Of a stretch of 32,545 nucleotides of DNA, positions 7,801-22,903 are shown piece after piece. Below the pieces are notes generated by a model. The model searched no databases and was not told where the DNA came from. It worked only from the letters and a program-made list of their open reading frames with translations. The DNA is from an uncultured Blautia sp. GTDB lineage: Bacteria > Bacillota > Clostridia > Lachnospirales > Lachnospiraceae. Location: positions 1 through 32,545 of the forward strand of contig CAMOQF010000013.1 in NCBI GenBank assembly GCA_946622645.1, written 5' to 3'. A program made the position numbers and the translations under genes. The first letter of the stretch is position 1; the number at the start of each line of letters is the position of its first letter.

Positions 7801-9235
7801 GGATATCGACCTCAATTTCTCCGGTGAATATCAGGCTAACGCGCACAAATATACCGAAGTGATCTTCGGTAAAGGCCATACCTTCAAAGCCGGTACGATC
7901 GGCACGCTCGCGGAAAAGACAGCCTACGGCTATGTCAAGAATTATTTTGAGGAAAGAGGACAGCACAAACGGTACTGCGAGATCAACCGTATTGTACAGG
8001 GCTGCACCGGAATCCGGCGCACGACCGGACAGCATCCCGGCGGGATCGTGGTGCTTCCTCACGGGGAAGAGATCGAGAAGTTCACGCCGGTCCAGCATCC
8101 TGCCAACGATGTCAATTCCGACATCATCACGACACATTTTGACTATCATTCCATCGACGGAAACCTGTTAAAGCTGGATATCCTCGGGCATGACGATCCC
8201 ACCATGATCCGCATGCTGGAAGACCTGACCGGTACGGACGCGAAGAAAGTCCCCCTGGATGATCCGGGAGTGATGTCGCTGTTTGCGTCCACCAAAGCTC
8301 TGAAGATCCGCCCGGAAGATATCGGAGGCTGTCCGCTGGGATGTCTCGGAGTACCGGAATTCGGGACGGACTTTGTCATCGGGATGGTGCAGGAAGCACG
8401 TCCCACCTGCTTCTCGGATCTGATCCGTATCTCGGGGCTTTCACACGGCACCAACGTGTGGCTTGGAAACGCGCAGAAGCTGATCAGCGACGGACTTGCG
8501 ACCATCTCGACCGCTATCTGCACCAGAGATGATATCATGGCTTATCTGATCCGTATGGGCGTGGAATCGAGCCTTGCCTTCACGATCATGGAGAGTGTCC
8601 GTAAAGGAAAAGGCCTTCGCCCGGAATGGGAGGAAGCCATGCTCGAGAAAAACGTGCCGAACTGGTATATCTGGTCCTGCAAGCAGATTTCGTACATGTT
8701 CCCGAAAGCGCATGCGGCCGCCTATGTCATGATGGCTTACCGGATCGCCTGGTACAAAGTCTACATGCCTCTGGCCTATTACGCGGCTTTCTTCAGCATA
8801 CGCGCTTCTTCCTTCTCCTACGAACTCATGTGCCTCGGCCGGGACCGGCTGGAGTTTTATATGGATGAGATCCGCAAAAAAGGAGATGCCGCGACCAAAA
8901 AAGAACAGGATACCATGAAGGACATGAAGATCGTGCAGGAGATGTACGCAAGAGGCTTTACTTTTGCTCCGATCGATATCTACAAAGCCAAAGCCCATCG
9001 TTTCCAGATCGTCGGCGATCAGCTGATGCCTGCGCTGGACACCATCGAAGGGCTGGGAGACAAGGCGGCGGACGCGGTGGAAGAAGCCGCAAAAGAGGGG
9101 CCGTTCCTCTCGAGGGATGACTTCCGCGACCGTACTCACGTCAGCAAAACGGTCATCGATCTGATGCAGGATCTGCATCTTTTCGGGGACATTCCGGAAT
9201 CCAACCAGATGTCCCTGTGGGATCTCGCGGAATAA
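4814..9235 (+). CDS. polC: DNA polymerase III alpha subunit, PolC type
   Basis: Replicative polymerase of low-G+C Gram-positives with built-in proofreading. 1473 residues (B. subtilis PolC has 1437). Order of parts: N-terminal domain (1-190), a Glu/Lys/Ala-rich linker (about 195-235), an OB-fold (about 245-345), a PHP domain opening with HCHTKMSDMDG (His358, His360), an inserted DnaQ-like 3'-5' exonuclease with FDIETTG (Asp452, Glu454) and HHRAVDDA, the remainder of PHP, then the polymerase palm. The palm has GSRGSVGSSFAATMSG, a zinc-binding Cys cluster (CPSC...CPVC), and catalytic Asp997/Asp999 in EPDIDLNFSGEYQ. A helix-hairpin-helix DTIEGLGDKAADAVEEA lies near the end. It is coupled to ispG by an ATGA overlap. 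No terminator follows; the next gene has its own promoter. Confidence 0.98.
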   Translation: MNKAFFEVFPTLKLDKELHDLLADAAVSRVTSNRERTRVAVYLESERWIHKKHIYSLEKKIASQCFAGLPVTVRVVEKFRLSSQYTAENFFEIYRDSMEYELQAQSVVEYNLLHTAKPVFLSSDTLRLEMPDTILADEKKHLLEEYLHKVFCERCGLDLKLTILLTENKESRQRQNDALRIAEEVAQISRNASSGRTEAPAEEKSEKEPEKKNDAKTQEKKTSAPLRKDASPDVIYGKDFDGEAAELSSITDVMGEVVVRGRVMEVETRSIKNEKTILIFSITDFTDSIVVKLFLPDEHVDDVLSGLKKGSFIKLRGRTMIDRYDGELTIGNLLGIKKIKDFTSTRMDTSPQKRVELHCHTKMSDMDGVTDAKALVKRAYEWGHKAIAITDHGVVQAFPEANHCFDAWGGCVPKDSDFKVLYGMEAYLVDDLKGIVTNSEGQSLSGSYVVFDIETTGFSPLSCRIIEIGAVRVEGGKITDRFSQFVNPQIPIPFRIEQLTGIDDSMVADAPPIEEVLPSFLSFCHDAVMVAHNADFDMSFIMENCRRQGLPDTFTYVDTVGIARFLLPSLNRFKLDIVAKALGVPLLNHHRAVDDAACTAEIFVRFVRMLEEREIYNLDLLNDKAAVSPDMIKKLPTYHAVIFMRNETGRINLYKLVSKSHLQYYHRHPRVPKSEFLRHREGLLIGSACEAGELYQALLRNAPEPEIARIVSFYDYLEIQPLGNNAFMIRDEKNDTVHSEEDLITLNKKIVRLGEQFDKPVVATCDVHFMDPQDEVYRRIIMAGSGFSDADQQAPLYLRTTEEMLQEFSYLGSEKAEEVVITNTNRIADMIEKISPIHPDKFPPVIENSDQDLRKICYEKAHQIYGDPLPEIVENRLSRELHSIISNGYAVMYIIAQKLVWKSNEDGYLVGSRGSVGSSFAATMSGITEVNPLPPHYVCPSCQYSDFDSETVRRYADKVGADLPDMNCPVCGAKLRKDGFNIPFETFLGFKGDKEPDIDLNFSGEYQANAHKYTEVIFGKGHTFKAGTIGTLAEKTAYGYVKNYFEERGQHKRYCEINRIVQGCTGIRRTTGQHPGGIVVLPHGEEIEKFTPVQHPANDVNSDIITTHFDYHSIDGNLLKLDILGHDDPTMIRMLEDLTGTDAKKVPLDDPGVMSLFASTKALKIRPEDIGGCPLGCLGVPEFGTDFVIGMVQEARPTCFSDLIRISGLSHGTNVWLGNAQKLISDGLATISTAICTRDDIMAYLIRMGVESSLAFTIMESVRKGKGLRPEWEEAMLEKNVPNWYIWSCKQISYMFPKAHAAAYVMMAYRIAWYKVYMPLAYYAAFFSIRASSFSYELMCLGRDRLEFYMDEIRKKGDAATKKEQDTMKDMKIVQEMYARGFTFAPIDIYKAKAHRFQIVGDQLMPALDTIEGLGDKAADAVEEAAKEGPFLSRDDFRDRTHVSKTVIDLMQDLHLFGDIPESNQMSLWDLAE

Positions 9236-9241
9236 AATGAT

Positions 9242-9270
9242 TTGACAATCCCTTCAGGCAGCGCTACAAT
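9242..9270 (+). promoter_or_regulatory. Strong sigma-A promoter of the PurF-like gene
   Basis: Consensus TTGACA (9242-9247), 17-base spacer and TACAAT (9265-9270, five of six), starting just 6 bases after the polC stop. The PurF-like gene is therefore likely transcribed on its own. Confidence 0.85.
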
Positions 9271-9319
9271 ACGGTTCTGGAAAAAAAGAGTGAATGTAAG
9301 AAAAAAAGGAGCATATTAT

Positions 9320-10735
9320 ATGGGCGGATTCTTTGGAGTAGCATCAAAATCCAGCTGTATTCTGGATCTGTTTTTCGGAATCGACTATCATTCTCATCTG
9401 GGGACCCGCAGGGCAGGAATGGCGGTCTACGACAGAACTAACGGTTTTGACCGGGCCATTCACAACATTGAAAATTCTCCATTCAGGACCAAATTCGAGT
9501 ATGACGTGCAGGAGCTGGAGGGCACCATGGGGATCGGCTGTATCTCCGATTACGAGCCGCAGCCGCTGCTGGCAAGATCCCATCTTGGGAGCTTCGCCCT
9601 GACCTCCGTGTCGAAGATCAACAACATGGAAGAGCTGACAAGGACCGCTCTGAAGCGGGGACATACGCACTTTCTGGAGATGAGCGGGGGTTCCATCAAT
9701 CCGACGGAGATGATCATCGCGCTGATCAACCAGAAGGACAGCTTTGTGGAAGGCATCCGCTATGCGCAGGAGCTGATCGACGGATCCTGCTCCATCCTGA
9801 TCCTGACGCCTAAGGGGCTGATCGCAGCCCGCGACAGGCTGGGGCGGACGCCGGTCATCATCGGAAAAAAAGAAGACGCTTACTGCGTCTCCTTCGAAAG
9901 CTTTGCCTACGTAAATCTTGGATATGAAGATTATAAAGAGCTGGGCCCCGGCGAGATCGTACAGGTTACGCCCGACGGCGTCGAAACCCTGTCGCCTCCC
10001 GGAGACAAGATGCGCATCTGTTCCTTCCTGTGGGTCTATTATGGCTATCCTACTTCGACTTACGAAGGCGTCAATGTAGAAGATATGCGGTACAAATGCG
10101 GCCGTATCCTCGCTTCCCGTGATAAAGGAAAGGTGAACCCGGATCTGGTCGCAGGCGTCCCGGATTCCGGTACGGCTCATGCGATCGGCTATGCGAATGC
10201 TTCCGGCGTACCTTTCGCCAGACCGTTTATCAAATACACGCCGACCTGGCCGAGGTCCTTTATGCCGACCCAGCAGAGCCAGAGGAATCTGATCGCGCGT
10301 ATGAAGCTGATCCCTGTCCATAAGCTGATCAAGGGGAAGAGCCTCCTGATGATCGACGATTCCATCGTCCGCGGCACCCAGCTGAGAGAGACGACAGAGT
10401 TCCTGTATCATAACGGCGCAAGCGAGGTCCATATACGCCCTGCATGCCCGCCTCTTCTGTTCGGCTGCAAATATCTGAACTTTTCCAGATCCAAGTCGGA
10501 GATGGATCTGATCACCCGCCGGATCATCGCCGCCCGGGAAGGTGAAAATGTGTCGGAGTCCGTACTCCGCGATTATGCCGATCCGGATTCACAGAATTAT
10601 AAAGAGATGCTGGAGGATATCCGGAAGGAGCTGAACTTTACGTCCCTTCGTTTCCATCGGCTGGATGATCTGAAGAGATCCATCGACATCGATGAATGCA
10701 AGCTCTGCACCTACTGCTGGAGCGGAATAGAATAA
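9320..10735 (+). CDS. PurF-like phosphoribosyltransferase with a degenerate glutaminase domain
   Basis: 471 residues, colinear with glutamine-PRPP amidotransferase (PurF). The N-terminal Ntn domain is recognisable in fold but not in catalysis. PurF begins at Cys in CGVFGI; here the matching stretch is MGGFFGVASK, with Gly. PurF GH(V/T)RY becomes IGCISDYE, the HNGN loop becomes SVSKIN, and SSDTE becomes SINPTE. The PRTase half is intact: GVPDSG, RSFMPTQQSQR, RMKL and the PRPP motif LLMIDDSIVRGTQ (342-354). The four Fe-S cysteine positions of B. subtilis-type PurF also appear kept: Cys234, Cys383 and the C-terminal CKLCTYC (460, 463, 466). So PRPP use is likely and glutamine hydrolysis unlikely. 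It could use free ammonia, partner with another glutaminase, or be regulatory. ATG at 9320 follows AAAAGGAG; upstream in-frame codons lie in the promoter. Confidence 0.85.
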   Translation: MGGFFGVASKSSCILDLFFGIDYHSHLGTRRAGMAVYDRTNGFDRAIHNIENSPFRTKFEYDVQELEGTMGIGCISDYEPQPLLARSHLGSFALTSVSKINNMEELTRTALKRGHTHFLEMSGGSINPTEMIIALINQKDSFVEGIRYAQELIDGSCSILILTPKGLIAARDRLGRTPVIIGKKEDAYCVSFESFAYVNLGYEDYKELGPGEIVQVTPDGVETLSPPGDKMRICSFLWVYYGYPTSTYEGVNVEDMRYKCGRILASRDKGKVNPDLVAGVPDSGTAHAIGYANASGVPFARPFIKYTPTWPRSFMPTQQSQRNLIARMKLIPVHKLIKGKSLLMIDDSIVRGTQLRETTEFLYHNGASEVHIRPACPPLLFGCKYLNFSRSKSEMDLITRRIIAAREGENVSESVLRDYADPDSQNYKEMLEDIRKELNFTSLRFHRLDDLKRSIDIDECKLCTYCWSGIE

Positions 10736-10777
10736 AAAAGATCCTGGCGGGAGCCATTGCAGGGCTCTCGTCAGGAT
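10734..10777 (-). terminator. Hairpin between convergent PurF-like and XRE genes
   Basis: A 15-bp stem pairs 10741-10755 with 10763-10777 around a 7-base loop. As a plus-strand RNA the stem is complete with two G-U pairs, but only a weak U-run follows. As a minus-strand RNA it has two A-C mismatches but runs into six U (10739-10734). It probably serves both converging genes, with the U-run favouring the regulator. Confidence 0.6.
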
Positions 10778-10821
10778 ATCGCTTTAAGCCGATGATAAAG
10801 ATATATCAAATACGGACCGGA

Positions 10822-11037
10822 TCATTTGATTGGTTTTTTGTTGTCGGTACGGCCTACCAGATAGTCGATGGTCGTATCATAATAATTGGCCAGGCGGATC
10901 AGCATTTCGATCGGAATGCTGCGGGATCCTGTCTCATAATGTGAATACGAACGTTGACTGATGTGCAGGATCTCGCTTAACTGTTTCTGAGAAAGATCCG
11001 CATCATTTCTTAAATCCTGAATTCTCTGATATCTCAT
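10822..11037 (-). CDS. Small XRE-family helix-turn-helix regulator
   Basis: 71 residues, almost all of it one Cro/CI-type HTH domain: RIQDLRNDADLSQKQLSEIL (helices 1-2), HISQRSYSHYETGSRSIPIE (recognition region) and LIRLANYYDTTIDYLVGRTD. There is no sensor domain. Start ATG at 11037 follows GGAGAGGTG. Such proteins bind short dyads as dimers. The gene is divergent from comM, and its predicted -35 overlaps that of the comM operon, so it is a good candidate to regulate that operon and itself. Nothing around it looks phage-derived, and no toxin partner is adjacent. Target and signal are unknown. Confidence 0.88.
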   Translation of the reverse strand: MRYQRIQDLRNDADLSQKQLSEILHISQRSYSHYETGSRSIPIEMLIRLANYYDTTIDYLVGRTDNKKPIK

Positions 11038-11071
11038 CTTTTCACCTCTCCATCAAACACAAGATAATAAA

Positions 11072-11101
11072 ATTATAATCCATTTCAAAAATTGTGTTGA
11101 A
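11072..11101 (-). promoter_or_regulatory. Promoter of the XRE regulator
   Basis: Reverse strand: perfect TATAAT (11077-11072) with an 18-base spacer to a weak TTCAAC (11101-11096). The -35 overlaps the -35 of the plus-strand promoter. Confidence 0.5.
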
Positions 11102-11125
11102 AAAACGAGCAAAATGGGCTATAGT
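11097..11125 (+). promoter_or_regulatory. Promoter of comM-dprA-topA
   Basis: TTGAAA (11097-11102), 17-base spacer and TATAGT (11120-11125), both five-of-six or near matches, about 130 bases upstream of the comM start. This leaves an untranslated leader of roughly 120 bases. Confidence 0.7.
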
Positions 11126-11141
11126 AAACCTATCTTTTCTG

Positions 11142-11156
11142 CATTTTCTGAATTTC
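11142..11156 (+). promoter_or_regulatory. Possible CodY-like box in the comM leader
   Basis: CATTTTCTGAATTTC matches 11 of 15 positions of the CodY consensus AATTTTCWGAAAATT and lies about 10-25 bases after the expected start of transcription, where CodY could act as a roadblock. Four mismatches is borderline and such matches occur by chance. Confidence 0.25.
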
Positions 11157-11205
11157 TGATGCTTCTATCATAATTCATTCCACCCTGAAAAGCAAATCTG
11201 ACCGA

Positions 11206-19448: not shown

Positions 19449-20936
<1,488 letters not shown>

Positions 20937-20947
20937 CCTGACTCCAT

Positions 20948-20970
20948 TGCCCGGACTTTCAGCCCGGGCA
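20948..20970 (+). other. Hairpin between guaB and the IMP cyclohydrolase gene
   Basis: TGCCCGG (20948-20954) pairs with CCGGGCA (20964-20970) around a 9-base loop. No U-run follows, so it is not a typical terminator; it may set the ratio of the flanking messages. Confidence 0.45.
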
Positions 20971-20997
20971 GAATTATGCATGAAAAGAGGGAAAAGA

Positions 20998-21717
20998 ATG
21001 GCAGGATCACTGCAGACCAAATTGAAAGAAAACACTTATCCCGGCCGCGGTATCGTGATCGGAAGGTCCTCAGACGGCAAAAAAGCCGTCACAGCCTATT
21101 TTATCATGGGCAGAAGCACCAACAGCCGCAACAGGATCTTTGTGACCGAAGGCGAAGGGATCCGCACCCAGGCCTATGACGAAAGCCTTCTGGTGGACCC
21201 GAGCCTCATTATCTACGCCCCCGTGCGCGTCCTGGGCGATACGACCATCGTCACCAACGGCGATCAGACAGACACCATCTACGAAGGACTGCAGAAAGGC
21301 CTTACCTTTGAACAGTCTCTGCGGAGCCGCAGGTTTGAACCGGACGGTCCCAACTTCACCCCCAGGATCTCCGGCATCATGGAGGTGAAAGACGGCGGGT
21401 ATGCCTATTCACTCTCTATTCTGAAGAGCAACGAAGGCAGAGAAGAGTCCTGCGTCCGATTTACCTACGCTTATGATGAACCGGTCGCCGGTGAAGGCCA
21501 TTTTATCCACACCTATCAGCAGGACGGCGATCCGCTTCCAAGCTTTGCAGGGGAACCGGAGCCGGTAGAGATTCCCGATGACATCGATGCCTTCACAAAG
21601 ATGATCTGGGAAAGCCTGAACGAGGACAATAAAGTATCTCTGTTTGTCCGCTATATCGATATCGAAAGCGGAAAGTATGAGACCAGGATCGTAAACAAGC
21701 ACGAAGAGGAGAAATAA
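20998..21717 (+). CDS. purO: IMP cyclohydrolase, PurO type
   Basis: 239 residues. Resembles the archaeal-type IMP cyclohydrolase family rather than the MGS-like cyclohydrolase domain of bifunctional PurH. The family's start is clear: YPGRGIVIGRSSDGKKAVTA followed by YFIMGRSTNSRNRIF, then LIIYAPVRVLGDTTIVTNGD and PNFTPRISGIME. It closes the last ring of the purine, FAICAR to IMP. The ATG at 20998 is preferred because of AGAGGGAAAAG before it; an ATG six codons upstream is possible. It lies 61 bases after guaB and is separated by 1 base from the AICAR formyltransferase gene. The pair replaces bifunctional PurH. Confidence 0.88.
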   Translation: MAGSLQTKLKENTYPGRGIVIGRSSDGKKAVTAYFIMGRSTNSRNRIFVTEGEGIRTQAYDESLLVDPSLIIYAPVRVLGDTTIVTNGDQTDTIYEGLQKGLTFEQSLRSRRFEPDGPNFTPRISGIMEVKDGGYAYSLSILKSNEGREESCVRFTYAYDEPVAGEGHFIHTYQQDGDPLPSFAGEPEPVEIPDDIDAFTKMIWESLNEDNKVSLFVRYIDIESGKYETRIVNKHEEEK

Positions 21718-21718
21718 G

Positions 21719-22903
21719 ATGAAGGATTTTGAACTGAAATACGGCTGCAATCCCAATCAGAAGCCATCCCGTATCTATATGGCGGACGGATCAGAGCTTC
21801 CTGTCACGATCCTCTGCGGAAGACCAGGCTACATCAACTTCCTGGATGCTTTTAACGGCTACCAGCTTGTAAAAGAGCTCAAAAAAGCCGCCGGCCTTCC
21901 TGCCGCCACATCCTTTAAGCATGTCTCTCCCGCAGGAGCCGCCATCGGCCTTCCCCTCACGGAGACGCTTGCCAGGATCTACTGGGTGGACGATATGGAC
22001 TGGCAGAACTTTTCTCCCCTGGCCTGCGCTTATGCCCGTGCCAGAGGTGCTGACAGAATGTCTTCCTTCGGTGATTTTATCGCGCTCTCGGATATCTGTG
22101 ACAAGGACACGGCTCTCCTGATCAAGAGAGAAGTATCGGACGGTGTGATCGCTCCCGGTTATACGGAAGAGGCTCTCGAGATCCTGAAGACAAAAAAGAA
22201 AGGAAATTACAACGTCATTCAGATCGATCCGGACTATGTACCCTGTCCCACAGAGCATAAAGAAGTATACGGCATCACATTTGAGCAGGGACGGCAGGAG
22301 CTGCCCATAGATGACGCGCTGATCTCCAACATCGTAACGAAGAACAAGGATCTTCCGGAAAACGCTGCGAGAGATATCAAGATCTCCCTTATCATCCTCA
22401 AATACACCCAGTCCAACTCCGTCTGCTATGTAAAAGACGGTCAGGCCATCGGCATCGGCGCCGGACAGCAGTCCAGGGTCCATTGTACGCGTCTGGCAGG
22501 GCAGAAAGCAGATAACTGGTTCCTGCGCCAGAGTCCCAAGGTGCTTTCTCTTCCGTTTAAGGACACCATTACGAGGGCTGAGCGTGACAATGCGATCGAT
22601 GTCTATATCGGGGATGAATACATGGATGTCCTCTCTGACGGAGCCTGGGAGAAGACTTTTACAGAAAAGCCTGCCGTCTTTACCAGAGAAGAGAAGAGAG
22701 AGTGGCTGGATCAGATGACAGATGTGACGCTGGGTTCGGACGCTTTCTTCCCGTTCAGCGACAATATTGAAAGAGCCAGAAAGAGCGGCGTAAAATATGT
22801 GGCGGAGCCCGGCGGTTCTGTCAGGGATGACGCCGTGATCGAATGCTGCGACAAATATGGGATGGTCATGGTCTTTACCGGCATCAGGCTGTTCCATCAT
22901 TAA
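21719..22903 (+). CDS. purH: AICAR formyltransferase (stand-alone PurH C-terminal type)
   Basis: Transfers the formyl group of 10-formyl-THF to AICAR, giving FAICAR. 394 residues equal to only the transformylase part of PurH; the N-terminal MGS-like cyclohydrolase domain is absent. Diagnostic parts are ELKYGCNPNQKPSRIYM, the catalytic Lys67-His68 in SFKHVSPAGAAIG, the SFGDFIALSD segment, LKYTQSNSVCYVKDG, IGIGAGQQSRVHCTRLAG and the C-terminal SDAFFPFSDNIERA. ATG at 21719 follows AGAGGAGAAATA, one base after the previous stop, so translation is coupled. It uses folate that SHMT (glyA, next operon) supplies. No clear plus-strand terminator follows. Confidence 0.92.
   Translation: MKDFELKYGCNPNQKPSRIYMADGSELPVTILCGRPGYINFLDAFNGYQLVKELKKAAGLPAATSFKHVSPAGAAIGLPLTETLARIYWVDDMDWQNFSPLACAYARARGADRMSSFGDFIALSDICDKDTALLIKREVSDGVIAPGYTEEALEILKTKKKGNYNVIQIDPDYVPCPTEHKEVYGITFEQGRQELPIDDALISNIVTKNKDLPENAARDIKISLIILKYTQSNSVCYVKDGQAIGIGAGQQSRVHCTRLAGQKADNWFLRQSPKVLSLPFKDTITRAERDNAIDVYIGDEYMDVLSDGAWEKTFTEKPAVFTREEKREWLDQMTDVTLGSDAFFPFSDNIERARKSGVKYVAEPGGSVRDDAVIECCDKYGMVMVFTGIRLFHH

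Follow-up and report, generated by a model that had tools for sequence, protein, structure and literature searches.

A PurF paralog of Clostridia with an inactivated glutaminase half, probably an ammonia-dependent PRA synthase

The window analyzed here, a stretch of 32,545 nucleotides from an uncultured Blautia sp., carries a gene for a PurF descendant whose glutaminase half survives as an apparently dead, conserved scaffold, and which we judge, from its sequence and that of its relatives, to be quite probably an ammonia-dependent PRA synthase. This function was one of several offered in the original prediction, and it gains support from a wider family, where the paralog stands in for purF both within purine operons and in genomes that have kept the remaining pathway genes. 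Many bacteria of the gut, and relatives of these, carry such a paralog. As it seems to be the sole copy in a good number of them and to occupy the place of purF, free ammonia is probably what its purine synthesis starts from; PRA would be the product and free ammonia the nitrogen donor, and a genome holding both the paralog and canonical PurF would have two nitrogen sources for one step.

The gene and its setting in the window

The features of the gene, in window coordinates, are as follows.

9242..9270, + strand: promoter-like TTGACA-17-TACAAT, 11/12 matches
9306..9311, + strand: ribosome-binding site AAGGAG, read from the sequence, 8 bases 5' of the ATG
9320..10735, + strand: CDS of the glutaminase-dead PurF paralog, 471 aa, ATG start, stop included
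9323..9325, + strand: codon of Gly2, which aligns with the catalytic N-terminal Cys of PurF (alignment of 103)
9383..9406, + strand: DYHSHLGT (residues 22-29), family signature replacing canonical ...LQHRGQ (alignment)
9545..9547, + strand: Ser76, aligned with the glutamine-site Arg, with the loop after it shortened (alignment of 103)
10019..10021, + strand: codon of putative Fe-S cluster Cys234 (103/103)
10232..10261, + strand: PRPP flexible loop KYTPTWPRSF (305-314), with Trp310 inserted and K305 and R312 kept (alignment)
10343..10381, + strand: PRPP-binding signature LLMIDDSIVRGTQ (342-354) (alignments)
10466..10468, + strand: codon of putative Fe-S cluster Cys383 (103/103)
10706..10717, + strand: putative Fe-S cluster Cys463 and Cys466, CTYC (103/103 each)

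A promoter-like site that fits the near-consensus promoter claimed for the gene lies at 9242-9270, in a region (9100-11200) where nine promoter-like sites were found against 2.5 expected from shuffling. Behind this site the paralog stands alone, flanked by polC and comM (gene names by eye) and outside any purine operon, and an Rfam scan of the window at gathering scores returned tRNA only. Elsewhere in the window, positions 20929-22903 hold an IMP cyclohydrolase-like gene and a separate AICAR formyltransferase (NF005492), located after guaB (named by eye); the first of these matches PF07826 well over its cut-off and scores far under the archaeal PurO cut-off, and the pair represents split PurH functions. 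A further gene pair at 1177-3662 matches PF10112 and TelA (PF05816).

A PurF variant that has lost the glutamine site and kept the PRPP site

The window paralog matches solved PurF chains by sequence over both domains, and scores 181.6 bits against the NCBIfam purF model TIGR01134, about half of the curated cut-off of 350, which it does not reach. In a quick tree whose 11 canonical PurFs all come from the same order, 103 paralogs lie together on the other side of a branch with an SH-aLRT value of 100. These 103 sequences, of which 46 come from genomes lacking any match to canonical purF over the cut-off, make up the family alignment, and 29 PurFs form the canonical reference set. Mean identity between paralogs and the 29 canonical PurFs is about 26% in the N-terminal half and 34% in the PRTase half. 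Within the paralogs the corresponding values are 59% and 63%, and within the canonical PurFs, a sample not matched to the paralogs by genome, they are 61% and 65%. The N-terminal half of the paralogs is thus as conserved as that of canonical PurF, which argues for a dead domain that is under selection and shows no decay; the original description of this half as drifted is wrong for the family.

The individual losses read from the window protein recur throughout the alignment. Cys1 of PurF is replaced by Gly in 98 and by Ser in 5 of 103 paralogs, and is retained in none. The glutamine-site Arg of HVRY, which is Ser in the window protein, is Ser in 100, Asn in two and Ala in one of the family, with Arg in 0/103, and the canonical columns Y79, T81 and G83 are deleted in 103/103. 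HNGN has become SVSK in the window paralog, its first Asn being kept in 0/103, and the Asp of S-D-[ST]-E has become Pro, with an Asp two positions before the Glu in 1/103. The alignment also brought out changes that the first reading had missed: HRGQ is replaced by HLGT (Leu in 103/103, Thr in 101/103), D22, H24, S25, H26, L27 and G28 of the DYHSHLGT signature are invariant in the family, and His48 joins His24, Ser25 and His26 as invariant across the 103 aligned paralogs.

In the PRTase half the PRPP signature is kept, as first proposed, and alignment confirms this for the window paralog. The flexible-loop residues K305 and R312 are each present in 103/103 paralogs, as is the inserted W310, a residue overlooked in the first reading, at which the 29 canonical PurFs are gapped. 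PRPP residues K312, R318, D353, S354 and G358 occur in 103/103 paralogs and K335, D352, R357 and T359 in 102/103. Among the paralogs from 46 of the purF-less carriers, K312, R318, K335, D353, S354, R357, G358 and T359 are found in 46/46, and D352 in 45/46, the exception being one Glu. Three of the four cluster cysteines originally assigned, 234, 383 and 463, stand at 103/103, whereas residue 460 falls away, being Cys in only 48/103; the fourth conserved position is instead Cys466 (103/103).

Distribution of the paralog

Counting strong matches and including partial ones, we found the paralog in 122/391 genomes in a sample of the window's class; the order-wide count is 68/295 (66 full-length, one split in G329 and one partial in G163). 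Viral contigs yielded no relative. Among the best 80 of at least 597 loci, the carriers include Claveliimonas bilis, [Clostridium] asparagiforme DSM 15981 and Eubacterium ruminantium ATCC 17233, and all 12 genomes reached via named records (12 chosen of the 80 loci) hold canonical purF besides the paralog. Many carriers have canonical PurF as well; in others the paralog appears to be the sole copy.

Carriers without canonical purF

Canonical purF was sought with TIGR01134, over its cut-off, in 148 carriers (68 order-level and 80 class-level), and 48 of them gave no match. At order level these comprise 19 apparent purF-less carriers and 3 of the other 49; at class level they are 26/80. PurD exceeds its cut-off in 46/48 purF-less carriers (21/22 order-level, 25/26 class-level), the two misses being G190, which is 68% complete and has a sub-threshold piece, and G620, which shows purE-paralog-purM. 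The purM search, made in the order-level set, found the gene in 21/22 purF-less carriers, G190 again being the miss. Genomes with neither protein keep purM in 3/20 cases (G054, G096, G166), and the same three have purD; the Fisher p value for purD retention is about 4e-11, with kinship ignored. G054, which has neither full protein, carries a piece of canonical purF at the end of one contig, and a genus relative with neither protein, G003 (81% complete), has purM.

Of the 55 order-level carriers with completeness of 90% or more and contamination of 5% or less, 14 have no canonical purF over the cut-off and none is without purM or purD over theirs, a pattern that random gaps explain poorly. The assemblies of two purF-less carriers consist of one contig each (G576, 99% complete; G291, 92%), and canonical purF is absent from whole groups, namely g78 (4/4 sampled) and g182 (4/4 tested, with G556, 77% complete, left out). 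Mapped onto the tree, its absence takes a minimum of 22 changes (21 if G531 is dropped; the count omits ten rows that belong to less complete genomes). Some of the absences are probably assembly gaps; most purF-less genomes are drafts. Close relatives of the purF-less G531 and G111 hold purF, and G303 has, on another contig, a weak 26-bit match to the PurF profile (profile 1-73) that could be a piece of purF or of another amidotransferase. As a general explanation, assembly gaps were rejected on the strength of purM and purD retention and of the single-contig genomes; they were kept for G531 and G111 and possibly for G000.

In the window's own genome (92.9% complete, 186 contigs), where the original prediction had proposed looking for a canonical purF, the search gave no match. 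The second-tier match seen in most relatives, taken for GlmS by its size, is absent as well, and in view of this second absence and the state of the assembly the lack of purF may be a gap, in an organism that may have both enzymes. The genome contains purM and purD, as well as a purE-like gene identified by eye. Among its 36 genus relatives, 28 pass the purF cut-off, 28 show a match at the paralog's level and 22 do both, leaving 8 with no paralog-level match.

Position in purine operons

Neighborhoods were read for all 26 class-level and 20/22 order-level purF-less carriers, over at least 1.5 kb per side where the contig allows. In eight of these genomes (G358, G393, G419, G576, G587, G620, G635, G636) the paralog fills the purF slot, in the order purE or purC, paralog, purM (names by motif or eye). 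The most complete gene orders, those of G393, G636 and G358, read purE-(purC)-paralog-purM-purN-IMP cyclohydrolase-like-AICAR formyltransferase-purD-purL, with purD assigned by HMM and the other names by motif or eye. HMM searches placed purE, purM, purN, AICAR formyltransferase and purD of G636 over their cut-offs and purC under its own, gave no NCBIfam match at 1e-20 for the IMP cyclohydrolase-like protein of that genome, and placed purE, purC and purM of G576 over their cut-offs. A ZTP riboswitch lies 5' of purE in 5/8 purF-slot loci (L208, L216, L226, L218, L229) and was not found at the other three (L201, L228, L230). Five further purF-less carriers have purine neighbors: purC in G609 and G692, purE in G139, and purC, purB and purA in G249 and G215; the order purB-paralog-purA occurs at some other loci, with HMM support for G249. 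The remaining 33 of the 46 carriers read, the window included, show no recognized purine gene directly beside the paralog.

At family level, both lines of evidence for a PRA synthase are in hand, purD and purM without canonical purF and a position in the purine operon, and this evidence for replacement exceeds co-occurrence. Counting against the reading are the 12 named-record genomes that also carry canonical purF, the four genomes (G054, G096, G166, G003) with purM and neither protein, the 33 carriers with no purine neighbor recognized, and the draft state of most purF-less genomes. Genome G526, which has both proteins, shows purE-purC-paralog-purF-purM, an order suggesting that the paralog arose by tandem duplication and that one copy was later lost.

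Several other neighborhoods were recorded. At L220 the paralog closes a run of pyrimidine genes (names by eye). In the genus relative G005 (L071), canonical purF lies apart from the purine operon in a nitrogen locus, with neighbors read by eye as glutamate synthase, glutamine synthetase, CTP synthase and an ammonium transporter. At L061 (3580-5622), and also at L062-L065 and L070, a protein of about 680-715 aa precedes purE; in its C-terminal part the L061 copy scores above the cut-off for M29 peptidase (PF02073), and the likeness of the others was judged by eye.

Putative mechanism and alternative explanations

The putative mechanism for PRA formation begins with a protein in which, judging by its sequence, glutamine hydrolysis by the known route is impossible. 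PRPP would bind, and the loop would close as in PurF, as the conservation of the PRTase half suggests; NH3 would then attack C1 of PRPP to give PRA and pyrophosphate, and PurD, whose gene is retained, would take the PRA. We speculate that the new histidines and Trp310 might serve in ammonium capture and loop closing.

The source of the ammonia could differ from this scheme if the paralog makes PRA from ammonia supplied in trans by a separate glutaminase or an ammonia-releasing deaminase, which we consider unlikely. Possible ammonia sources do lie beside it at some loci: downstream of the purE-paralog pair, L095 (5473-7071) and L096 (5792-7447), both from f8 genomes, have genes for a D-serine-dehydratase-like PLP enzyme and a Rid-like protein, and a divergent Rid-like gene follows the paralog in L083 (5637-6146) and L112 (3434-3892), with HMM support only for the L083 Rid-like protein and for the PLP enzymes at L095 and L096. 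A carB-like gene also lies upstream in three f31 genomes, directly so in L210 and L235 and with a small ORF between in L227 (names by eye). However, no recognized glutaminase gene consistently adjoins the paralog in the neighborhoods, which were read by eye, and the window paralog is isolated with a promoter-like site of its own. Proximity likewise lends something to the idea that the paralog is a pseudoenzyme sensing PRPP, or else a regulatory subunit of canonical PurF, as canonical purF adjoins the paralog, or nearly so, in G526, G430, G529 and G668, and G109 has both in one cluster with purB and purA (by eye). Sensing, a role also raised in the original prediction, is nevertheless unlikely as the main one because in 48/148 tested carriers no match was seen to a canonical PurF that it could regulate, and in 46 of these carriers the paralog keeps the catalytic PRPP residues as strictly; overall we find this explanation very improbable.

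The near-invariance of DYHSHLGT in 103 sequences indicates that the N-terminal domain does something, and that something might be hydrolysis of glutamine or another amide at a new active site, formed for example by H24-S25-H26, H48 or Cys13. We give this little credence. A conserved alternative nucleophile, which the original prediction had named as evidence against itself, was sought in the alignments and none emerged: residue 2, Gly in 98/103, offers no N-terminal nucleophile, Cys13 is Ala or Val in 17/103, and the glutamine loop is shortened, with its Arg, Asn and Asp gone. Finally, the purF-less carriers might be artefacts of incomplete assembly and the paralog might have another role, given that drafts predominate and that purF-bearing close relatives are frequent, as the number of changes on the tree attests. 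Set against this are the two single-contig cases, the g78 and g182 groups, the order-level purM and purD genes, which are not missing at the rate of purF, and the eight genomes in which the paralog has taken the purF slot, and we regard such an artefact as extremely improbable.

Implications of an ammonia-dependent PRA synthase

Textbooks present the first committed step of purine synthesis as glutamine-dependent. If the paralog is an ammonia-dependent PRA synthase, purine synthesis in the genomes where it is the sole PRA source would start without glutamine. From the sequences we think it rather likely that Clostridia contain a large clade with ammonia-only purine entry, in which the paralog is the sole PRA source in dozens of genomes, and we lean to a similar degree toward the more detailed proposal that the dead, re-used glutaminase domain, with its invariant HSH, His48 and the PRPP-loop Trp, takes ammonium directly. 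Among the literature matches listed (titles and abstract openings), there was no report of a glutaminase-less PurF in Clostridia or of such a bacterial clade. According to the available text of a 2012 study on Salmonella (PMC3485032), no PurF-independent route had yielded PRA in amounts that covered the purine requirement, and TrpD was the one enzyme other than PurF for which direct PRA formation in the cell had been demonstrated. A PRA synthase that occurs naturally without a glutaminase would be the case that was lacking. It would also correct annotations that call such genomes purine auxotrophs or the gene plain purF, and would link the purine supply of gut Clostridia to the ammonia around them. 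Drugs that act on PurF as glutamine analogues should spare the paralog.

Comparison with known systems

The paralog is a variant of PurF and no new kind of enzyme. It is like PurF (EC 2.4.2.14; TIGR01134; B. subtilis 1ao0/1gph, E. coli 1ecb) over both domains, sharing the PRPP loop, the flexible-loop Lys and Arg, the four Bacillus-type Fe-S cysteines and, in part of the family, the purine operon setting. It differs in the absence of Cys1 and of the glutamine-site Arg, Asn and Asp, in the shortened glutamine loop, in the change of HRGQ to HLGT and in the one-residue Trp insertion in the flexible loop.

A further PurF-like protein, the crenarchaeal PurF', was the subject of a 2011 paper by authors whom we take to be Brown et al. 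In its available text, an ammonia-dependent PRPP aminotransferase is suggested as a hypothesis, and the crenarchaeal genomes studied have one canonical PurF and one PurF' each (PMC3261824). Compared by description at family level, as far as that text goes, PurF' and the paralog are both PurF-like, without the N-terminal Cys and near purine genes; PurF' coexists with canonical PurF, whereas the paralog is alone in 48/148 tested carriers. If our reading of the paralog is correct, the archaeal hypothesis becomes testable.

According to the available text of PMC12017579, canonical PRPP amidotransferase uses ambient NH3 too, and that of PMC3261824, citing earlier work, reports that E. coli PurF with Cys1 replaced kept its ammonia activity and lost the use of glutamine. 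This variant is a working model for the paralog family, in which the same exchange of capacities would have occurred; it is, however, a single laboratory substitution, whereas the paralogs are a natural clade with a remodelled loop.
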